This document shows, piece after piece, positions 23,813 through 24,953 of a DNA stretch of 64,000 nucleotides; position 1 is the first letter of the stretch; each line of letters starts with the position of its first letter. Source of the DNA: Deltaproteobacteria bacterium (GTDB taxonomy: Bacteria > CG2-30-53-67). The notes beneath the pieces were generated by a model. That model was given only the letters and a program-made list of their open reading frames with translations. It did no database searches and had not been told where the DNA came from. The DNA is taken from the NCBI GenBank assembly GCA_013151235.1, contig JAADIO010000002.1:41369-105368 (forward strand), written 5' to 3'. A program made the translations under genes and the position numbers.

Positions 23813-23898
23813 GGAGGAGTGGCCGAGTGGTTGAAGGCGGCGGTCTTGAAAACCGTTGTGCGAAAGCACCGTGGGTTCGAATCCTACCTCCTCCGCCA
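23813..23898 (+). tRNA. tRNA-Ser(UGA), CCA encoded
   Basis: Acceptor GGAGGAG pairs with CTCCTCC. The anticodon loop CTTGAAA gives anticodon TGA, there is a long variable arm, and the T-arm is GTGGG-TTCGAAT-CCTAC. Discriminator G and CCA are encoded. It lies 10 bases after serS. Confidence 0.96.
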
Positions 23899-24106
23899 GG
23901 TTTTTGCGAAGCAAAAACCTATGGCAATTCGCGATGCGAATTGCAGAACAACAAAAATAAGAAGAGGTAGGATGAGAAACCGGGTTCGACCCCAAGATAC
24001 CTTCAGAGGAGCCGCCGAAGGCGGCAAGGATAAGATCTTAAGCGGGACGCGCTGCGTCCTGAAGCGGAGCGGAAGGGCGGAAAGCGCAATCCTACCTCCT
24101 CCGCCA
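23899..24106 (+). repeat. rtT-like unit 1 after tRNA-Ser(UGA)
   Basis: Fills the gap after the tRNA and ends in a 19-nt exact copy (24088-24106) of the tRNA's 3' end from AATCC to CCA; the period is 208 bases. The hairpins AGGTTTTTGC-GAA-GCAAAAACCT (23898-23920) and GCAATTCGC-GAT-GCGAATTGC (23924-23944) come first. The core then has a 5' arm GAGGTAGGAT (23964-23973) pairing with ATCCTACCTC (24089-24098), a T-arm-like CGGGTTCGACCC, the hairpin GCCGCC-GAA-GGCGGC and a conserved AAGGATA...GCGGGACGCG stretch. It resembles the tyrT repeat layout of enteric bacteria. Whether it makes a stable RNA is unknown. Confidence 0.7.
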
Positions 24107-24128
24107 TTTTGTCGCTTCGCGACAAAAT
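24106..24128. repeat. Mini-hairpin at the CCA copy of unit 1
   Basis: ATTTTGTCGC-TTC-GCGACAAAAT, a perfect 10-bp stem with a 3-nt loop. It begins at the final A of the duplicated CCA, exactly as the hairpin after the real tRNA does. Confidence 0.8.
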
Positions 24129-24131
24129 AAT

Positions 24132-24177
24132 CAATTTGCAAAGCAAATTGTAATATAATTTTACTTCGTAAAATTAT
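24132..24177. repeat. Paired mini-hairpins before tRNA-Ser(GCU)
   Basis: CAATTTGC-AAA-GCAAATTG followed by ATAATTTTAC-TTC-GTAAAATTAT. The same pair stands before tRNA-Ser(CGA) at 25654-25697, with loops TCC and GAA; the second loop is the reverse complement of the one here, as if the hairpin had inverted. Confidence 0.8.
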
Positions 24178-24179
24178 CA

Positions 24180-24273
24180 GGAGAGATGGCCGAGTCGGCT
24201 GAAGGCGCTCGCCTGCTAAGCGAGTGTAGGGCTTAACACCCTACCGAGGGTTCGAATCCCTCTCTCTCCGCCA
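24180..24273 (+). tRNA. tRNA-Ser(GCU), CCA encoded
   Basis: Acceptor GGAGAGA with TCTCTCC, anticodon stem CTCGC/GCGAG, loop CTGCTAA giving GCT, and a long variable arm. The T-arm is GAGGG-TTCGAAT-CCCTC and CCA is encoded. It reads AGU/AGC codons. Confidence 0.96.
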
Positions 24274-24479
24274 TGTTTTCGTTGCACGAAAACACCAAGT
24301 AGTTTGCTTTGCAAATTGCGATAGCCATAAAGAGAGAGGGTGAGAAGCCTCGCTGGTTCGATCCCAAGATACCTTAATGTGATGGCCGTCGAAGACGGCA
24401 AGGATAGATCTAAAGCGGGACGCGCGACACCCCGTAGCGAAGCGTAGGGGTGGAAAGCGCAATCCCTCTCTCTCCGCCA
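24274..24479 (+). repeat. rtT-like unit 2 after tRNA-Ser(GCU)
   Basis: Period 206 bases, ending in a 19-nt copy (24461-24479) of the tRNA-Ser(GCU) 3' end. It begins with the hairpin TGTTTTCGT-TGC-ACGAAAACA (24274-24294). The core 5' arm AGAGAGAGGG (24331-24340) pairs with CCCTCTCTCT (24464-24473), then comes TGGTTCGATCCCAAGATACC. The central hairpin is GCCGTC-GAA-GACGGC, a two-sided compensatory change from units 1 and 3, followed by AAGGATAGATCTAAAGCGGG. A third stem pairs CCCC and GGGG around an AGCGAAGCG loop. Confidence 0.7.
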
Positions 24480-24524
24480 TATTTTCGTTGTACGAAAACA
24501 TCGAGCAATTCGCTAAGCGGATTG
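24479..24524. repeat. Mini-hairpins after unit 2
   Basis: ATATTTTCGT-TGT-ACGAAAACAT (24479-24501), starting at the A of the copied CCA, and CAATTCGC-TAA-GCGGATTG (24506-24524). Each has one wobble or mismatch. The first mirrors the hairpin after the real tRNA-Ser(GCU). Confidence 0.7.
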
Positions 24525-24566
24525 TGATCACTATAATGATAGAAAGAGAAAGAGACGAAAACCCGA

Positions 24567-24654
24567 GGAGAGGTGACCGAGAGGCCGAAGGTGCACGACT
24601 GGAAATCGTGTGTAGTGAAAGCTACCGGGGGTTCGAATCCCCCCCTCTCCGCCA
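24567..24654 (+). tRNA. tRNA-Ser(GGA), CCA encoded
   Basis: Acceptor GGAGAGG with CCTCTCC, anticodon stem CACGA/TCGTG and loop CTGGAAA giving GGA. The T-arm is GGGGG-TTCGAAT-CCCCC, with a long variable arm. CCA is encoded. Confidence 0.96.
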
Positions 24655-24857
24655 TGTTGAAAAGTTTGGCGGATCATTGGGAGATTACATCGAACCGGAT
24701 CGTGGTACGGGGGGGAATGAGAAGCCCCGTTGGGGTTCGACCCCAAGACACATCCAGAGGAGCCGCCGTAGGCGGCAAGGATAGATCTAAAGCGGGGCAC
24801 GCGACGCCCCGGAGCGAAGCGGAGGGGTGGAAAGCGTGAATCCCCCCCTCTCCGCCA
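24655..24857 (+). repeat. rtT-like unit 3 after tRNA-Ser(GGA)
   Basis: Period 203 bases, ending in a copy (24839-24857, matching from GAATCC) of the tRNA-Ser(GGA) 3' end. The linker differs from units 1 and 2 and lacks the mini-hairpins. The core 5' arm of seven G (24709-24715) pairs with seven C (24842-24848). It continues with TTGGGGTTCGACCCCAAGA, the hairpin GCCGCC-GTA-GGCGGC, AAGGATAGATCTAAAGCGGGG, and a GCCCC/GGGGT stem around GGAGCGAAGCGGA. Confidence 0.7.
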
Positions 24858-24953
24858 TGTTGAAAAGTTTGGCGGATCATTGGGAGATTACATCGAACCG
24901 GATCGTGGTGCGGGGGGGAATGAGAAGCCCCGTTGGGGTTCGACCCCAAGATA
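24858..24953 (+). repeat. Truncated fourth rtT-like unit
   Basis: Near-exact tandem copy of the first 96 bases of unit 3 at an offset of 203 bases (24635-24750 matches 24838-24953; differences seen at 24707/24910 and 24749/24952). It stops after the T-arm-like CGACCCCAAGATACC. The following AT-rich GAAATTTTTTGAAAAAATTTT leads into tRNA-Arg. It shows that the whole unit, including the tRNA 3' end, duplicates as a block. Confidence 0.8.

Follow-up and report, generated by a model that had tools for sequence, protein, structure and literature searches.

The closest described counterparts of the locus examined here are the tRNA-linked repeats (TLRs) of Escherichia coli, which have been known since 1978 and include rtT/rttR at tyrTV. 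A TLR is recognised by 18–19 bp at its own 3' end that exactly repeat the 3' end of the gene lying directly upstream, by its location in a tRNA or rRNA operon with one to five units per locus, and by transcription and processing from the primary transcript. The term, as used for E. coli, is that of Rudd 1999 as described in PMC8144298. The same source counts 22 TLRs in E. coli, within tRNA and rRNA operons and without known function, and records that a claimed early phenotype of rtT was retracted. The 5S-linked RrA, RrB and RrF of E. coli are transcribed, and were bound by Hfq and CsrA in vitro (PMC8144298).

The window is a stretch of 64,000 nt from a genome of the CG2-30-53-67 lineage, and its tRNA genes were located with ARAGORN. 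A cluster of five was found in the order Ser(UGA), Ser(GCU), Ser(GGA), Arg(ACG), Ser(CGA), of which the first three occupy 23813–23898 (60.8 bits with the Rfam tRNA model), 24180–24273 and 24567–24654; these genes and all unit features given below lie on the + strand. A sequence-only reading had placed repeat units of 208, 206 and 203 nt behind these three genes, each closed by an exact copy of the 3' end of its own tRNA. The positions were reproduced: the units end 208 (UGA), 206 (GCU) and 203 nt (GGA) past the CCA of the upstream tRNA, and the longest exact copies of the host tail, the identity by which a TLR is recognised, are 19, 19 and 20 nt, where about 1e-9 would be expected per tRNA by chance. 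There are one to two units per unit-bearing tRNA of the cluster. No unit was found in the window at tRNA-Arg(ACG) or tRNA-Ser(CGA) of the same cluster, whereas three relatives (G001, G003 and G004) carry units on tRNA-Ser(CGA). By their sequence, the window units extend the TLRs to a new phylum and to a new type of insert.

Each unit consists, from 5' to 3', of an arm complementary to the host tail, the motif TGAGAA, a short loop, GGTTCGA, a core of about 99 nt, and the 3' T-arm half, followed by the acceptor strand and CCA. Since GGTTCGA is the 5' half of the T-arm, this half is duplicated as well, and the tRNA-derived part of the unit is thus split by the core. The core is flanked by the two T-arm halves, and its position therefore corresponds to the T-loop, between A58 and 59 (TTCGA^ATCC). 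The arms were recognised from the sequence and the arm/tail duplex, the tail copies by exact match and the inserts with a covariance model of the core (R1), whose only matches in the window are those in the three units. In the UGA unit, the left arm GAGGTAGGAT (23964–23973, followed by GA-GAA) precedes the 5' T-arm half GGGTTCGA (23982–23989), which forms the left flank of the insert (23990–24088, 91.3 bits); the 19-nt tail copy including CCA follows at 24088–24106, its first A being common to the end of the insert. The GCU unit has the arm AGAGAGAGGG (24331–24340), GGTTCGA (24355–24361), an insert of 107.3 bits (24362–24461) and a 19-nt tail copy (24461–24479), and the GGA unit the arm GGGGGGG (24709–24715), GGTTCGA (24734–24740), an insert of 92.1 bits (24741–24839) and a 20-nt tail copy (24838–24857). 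A second GGA unit (24858–24955, 98% identity over 117 nt) repeats the arm (24912–24918) and GGTTCGA (24937–24943) and breaks off 12 nt into its insert, after CCCCAAGATACC (24944–24955). It was found that the arms pair best with the tail of their own tRNA: over 35 distinct units and 21 distinct tails, the duplex energies total -676.7 kcal/mol, whereas 5000 shuffles averaged -451.8 and never reached the observed sum.

Two further observations concern the surroundings of the units. Short A+T-rich hairpins in runs (TTTTCGTTGCACGAAAA, CAATTTGCAAAGCAAATTG) occur in the spacers of the tRNA cluster at 23899–24566, and similar A+T-rich hairpins occur in the tRNA clusters of the relatives. An open frame of 103 amino acids spans tRNA and unit at 23819–24130; as with E. 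coli tpr inside rttR, this is probably not a gene.

The description of the units as rtT-like was borne out by cmscan, in which RF00391 (RtT) aligned over its whole model (1–130) to all three units with 30.5, 27.6 and 25.9 bits. The gathering cut-off of 45 bits was not reached by any of them, so that the Rfam check proposed in the sequence-only reading gave an end-to-end alignment at a score below the threshold. The arm complementary to the tRNA 3' end, UGAGAA, GGUUCGA and the tail copy of the model are all present, and the insert of RF00391 finds no match among the window inserts. The scaffold arm-GGAT-GA-GAA..GGTTCGA-[insert]-ATCC..CCA is common to the window units and E. coli tyrTV. The E. 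coli TLRs likewise copy 18–20 nt of the 3' end of the upstream tRNA, are repeated in tRNA clusters, and have the inverted arm, TGAGAA, GGTTCGA and an insert at the T-loop position. The window units differ in that they belong to another phylum, are placed on serine tRNAs, and carry an insert that is of the R1 type rather than of the gammaproteobacterial type (R2) in both sequence and structure; in addition, the insert of the window lineage is demonstrably a dispersed repeat. The core had been said to differ in sequence from that of E. coli, and indeed the E. coli loci contain no match to R1, and the three units none to R2. The further suggestion of an independent or very diverged system can be upheld for the insert but not for the scaffold, which is shared with E. 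coli. Another Rfam family, the Xanthomonas sRNA sX4 (RF02223), has a model that joins a tRNA-Ser to the first part of a unit of this type (GGGGGGUGAGA), and scored 44, 38 and 29 bits in the window, below its cut-off of 70, with most of the score given by the tRNA itself.

The insert is structured and dispersed. In an alignment of 25 copies from the window lineage, 95.5% of the cells were paired and 15 of the 19 pairs were changed on both sides, whereas sliding controls gave at most six; the covariation score of 0.344 against 0.141 in shuffled alignments was positive in the test for compensatory change. The relatives searched are metagenome-assembled genomes labelled CG2-30-53-67, all of them drafts with many contigs; search results are lower bounds and the E-values of the models are rough. 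Within the family, R1 was found in all six genomes, with 12 (G000), 30 (G001), 12 (G002), 67 (G003), 45 (G004) and 24 (G005) copies, and with no copies in the two genomes of the sister family (G006, G007) or in G275, so the occurrence in related genomes that the sequence-only reading had asked about extends to the family and not to its sister. That reading had also held that units absent from relatives, or present only as decaying duplications, would make a functional RNA unlikely. The core is retained with a conserved structure, but the presence of units per tRNA varies: they occur on the UGA, GCU and GGA genes in the window, on CGA in G001 and G004, on UGA and CGA in G003, and on GGA in G005. 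A second variant of the insert is present at TGAGA^A within some units, and G003 contains a nearly complete copy of tRNA-Ser(CGA) with the insert in the T-loop, adjoining the intact gene. Both plasmids and viral contigs were searched for the insert, and none was found there.

The flanks of 83 copies in the window lineage were read and reduced to 43 distinct contexts. An A precedes the insert in 42 of these and follows it in 36, and the second following base is C or T in 40. The joins at these A^A(C/T) sites are precise and without target duplication, and the T-loop site TTCGA^ATCC conforms to the rule. Filled sites could be matched to empty ones: joining the flanks of L174, or those of L178, gives a sequence identical over 36 of 36 nt to a shorter uninserted repeat, L016, and near-exact pairs are L172/L164 and L158/L050. 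Tandem insertions were also seen, in which a second copy occupies the A^A made by the 3' end of the first (L188, L190, L222). The number of independent insertions is smaller than that of copies, as the majority of the dispersed copies lie within a few other repeat families. The copies of this lineage gave no signal for targeting of hairpin loops; such targeting was significant for gammaproteobacterial copies only (p ~0.0005–0.002, in short windows). About 20 MITE-like repeats with the terminal inverted repeats GTAACnnCTCAGG were noted in G000 (L005–L024), measuring about 220 bp with the insert and about 145 bp without it.

A pattern search for the scaffold in 386 varied genomes matched 18 of them, with a tRNA adjoining the site only in G000, G003 and G275; the other matches, having no tRNA beside them, were taken as chance. 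One further real unit was obtained in this way, on tRNA-Gln(CTG) in G275 (L086). This unit, from another lineage, carries a third kind of insert that neither R1 nor R2 matches. In the class of Thiorhodococcus (Gammaproteobacteria), 28 of 229 genomes matched the pattern and few its reversed form. A match in the contigs of Thiorhodococcus itself lies inside coding sequence and, judged by eye, looks like chance. Nearly all of the gammaproteobacterial loci fetched (27 of 30) follow a tRNA for Gln, Tyr, Ser or Glu, mostly with the host's own tail copied, and Arg and Val hosts were added by a search with the core model. tRNA-Ser is not special as a host, since Gln, Tyr, Glu, Arg and Val tRNAs also carry the scaffold; a limitation to class II tRNAs (Ser, Tyr) is ruled out by the Gln, Glu, Arg and Val hosts.

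The gammaproteobacterial core model, R2, was positive in 21 of the 22 genomes tested, and each of these has between 1 and 41 copies. T-loops account for 23 of the 75 copies read; the rest lie in D-loops of tRNA-Ser-like genes, in a hairpin loop of the element itself or at unrelated sites. Outside T-loops there are 39 distinct contexts, with an A before the insert in 37 and behind it in 35. A different insert therefore obeys the same A^A rule, which provides an independent check of it. One gammaproteobacterium has a full copy of tRNA-Arg(CCG) with an R2-type insert in the T-loop (L258). The D-loop copies in tRNA-Ser-like genes (GGTCGA^A, GGCTGA^A) were observed at L299, L275, L311, L286, L279 and L308.

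The rrnB terminator of E. coli is used in many plasmids. Its T1–T2 repeat (L267:318-425), which was left out when R2 was built, scored 68.8 bits; between the terminators lies an incomplete 5S tail that is interrupted at GAGTAGGA^AACTGCC and whose joined flanks give the 5S 3' end (GAGTAGGGAACTGCC) with one mismatch. RrA, RrB and RrF of the rrn T1–T2 intervals thus resemble the window units in that a hairpin element interrupts, at A^A, the partial 3' end of a stable RNA. They differ in being derived from 5S rRNA rather than tRNA, and in a gammaproteobacterial insert that binds CsrA in vitro and has GGA loops, which are absent from the window lineage. Two or more GGA hairpin loops are present in 18 of 28 gammaproteobacterial inserts, against 6% of shuffles. 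A conserved GGA in two loops on varying stems, a CsrA/RsmA-like signature, was noted at L093–L122, L233–L262 and L270–L329, and occurs in tRNA trailers far beyond the enterics. At L117, two hairpins of the insert contain an extra segment (ACGTACAGGGACGTACTAATGTCGCGGGAG and a near-copy), apparently a nested insertion.

Taken together, the units are best explained, with a probability of roughly 0.68, as TLRs in the sense of rearranged partial copies of tRNA 3' ends whose T-loop is interrupted by a hairpin repeat of about 99 nt that is mobile in this lineage. Mobility is favoured first, since the insert is a dispersed repeat with empty sites. The repeat would enter A^A(C/T) sites precisely and without target duplication, including the site after A58 (TTCGA^ATCC) in duplicates of tRNA tails, where it would be tolerated because the intact upstream tRNA keeps the cell alive. 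Once formed, the duplicate tail, the arms and the 19-nt repeats could recombine, which would lead to tandem multiplication and to gain and loss of units. We infer that the repeat was inserted into tail copies and was not exported from them. The units would presumably be transcribed as the trailer of the pre-tRNA and set free when the tRNA is processed. A simple insertion into a tail duplicate does not explain the inverted arm with TGAGAA, which E. coli and the window units have in common.

REPs are small multi-copy hairpin repeats without target duplication, and the REP/BIME elements associated with RAYT (Y1) transposases share with the window-lineage repeat a small hairpin form, a high copy number and the lack of target duplication. 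They differ in that no REP consensus was seen in the window-lineage repeat, and that the latter is not linked to a Y1 gene. A Y1/RAYT mobiliser was considered and rejected, as PF01797 genes are also present in the repeat-free G006 and G007 and show no link to the repeat; the nearest one seen lies about 1.1 kb from a copy (G004:C101) and the others are not close. Y1/HUH transposases do not track the repeat, being present in sister genomes without it, and no mobilising enzyme was identified for it in the genomes examined.

The covariation of the insert would equally be expected of a functional RNA, and the units might be read as an sRNA under selection, cut from the pre-tRNA trailer in the manner of rtT or RrB, with the dispersed copies as secondary spread. 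Such a selected RNA structure is kept in play chiefly because the inverted arm with TGAGAA is common to two phyla. It is also in line with whole-unit folding z-scores of -2.98 and -2.34, somewhat better than shuffles, with the transcribed and Hfq- and CsrA-binding RNAs of E. coli, and with the GGA loops of the gammaproteobacterial inserts. Nevertheless, none of 83 inserts of CG2-30-53-67 has two GGA loops, which rules out a CsrA sponge in the window lineage; the presence of units per tRNA differs among close relatives and the sister family has none; empty target sites exist; and the rtT phenotype once claimed was withdrawn. A selected sRNA is therefore considered unlikely.

Unequal recombination of tRNA genes could in principle account for the units by itself, the core being a hitch-hiking spacer that is neither mobile nor a functional RNA, as the tandem period of 203 nt, the incomplete last copy at 24858–24955 and the slippage favoured by 19-nt direct repeats would suggest. 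This is contradicted by the empty/filled pairs, since the core also occupies dispersed non-tRNA sites with exact empty counterparts and under the A^A rule, and shows compensatory changes; the probability left to it is very small. An intron-like RNA spliced from tRNA transcripts is just as improbable. The whole tRNA copies with a T-loop insert, the D-loop insertions and the precise joins without duplication would fit such an RNA, but each T-loop case that was read has the tRNA also in intact form beside the interrupted copy, most units consist of the tRNA tail only, from which splicing could not yield a tRNA, and many copies lie outside tRNA genes.

Under the mobile-repeat reading, the window lineage shows that the E. 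coli TLR scaffold also exists in a second phylum, where the insert is visible both inside and outside tRNA tails and empty sites are present. A repeat ending in 19 nt of a tRNA becomes the copy of a tRNA tail that a mobile element interrupts at one fixed T-loop position, a description that is testable in E. coli. The anatomy of TLRs would thereby be made concrete and their origin probable, the same shape of the 5S-linked rrn T1–T2 repeats would be explained, and units of this kind become easy to recognise whichever tRNA they follow. A bolder and rather doubtful extension is a class of mobile hairpins of 70–100 nt, in at least two phyla and in different sequence forms. By an RNA- or ssDNA-based route, they would insert precisely behind an A where a stable RNA, or its single-stranded DNA, folds into a loop (T-loop A58^59, D-loop, a copy of 5S, their own loops); TLRs, rtT and rrnB T1–T2 would then be the footprints of this class.

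Elsewhere in the window, R2 gave a weak match of 18.7 bits at 40068–40138, in apparent coding sequence, and a c-di-GMP-I riboswitch match on the - strand at 34235–34311 scored 36 bits, barely above its cut-off of 35.
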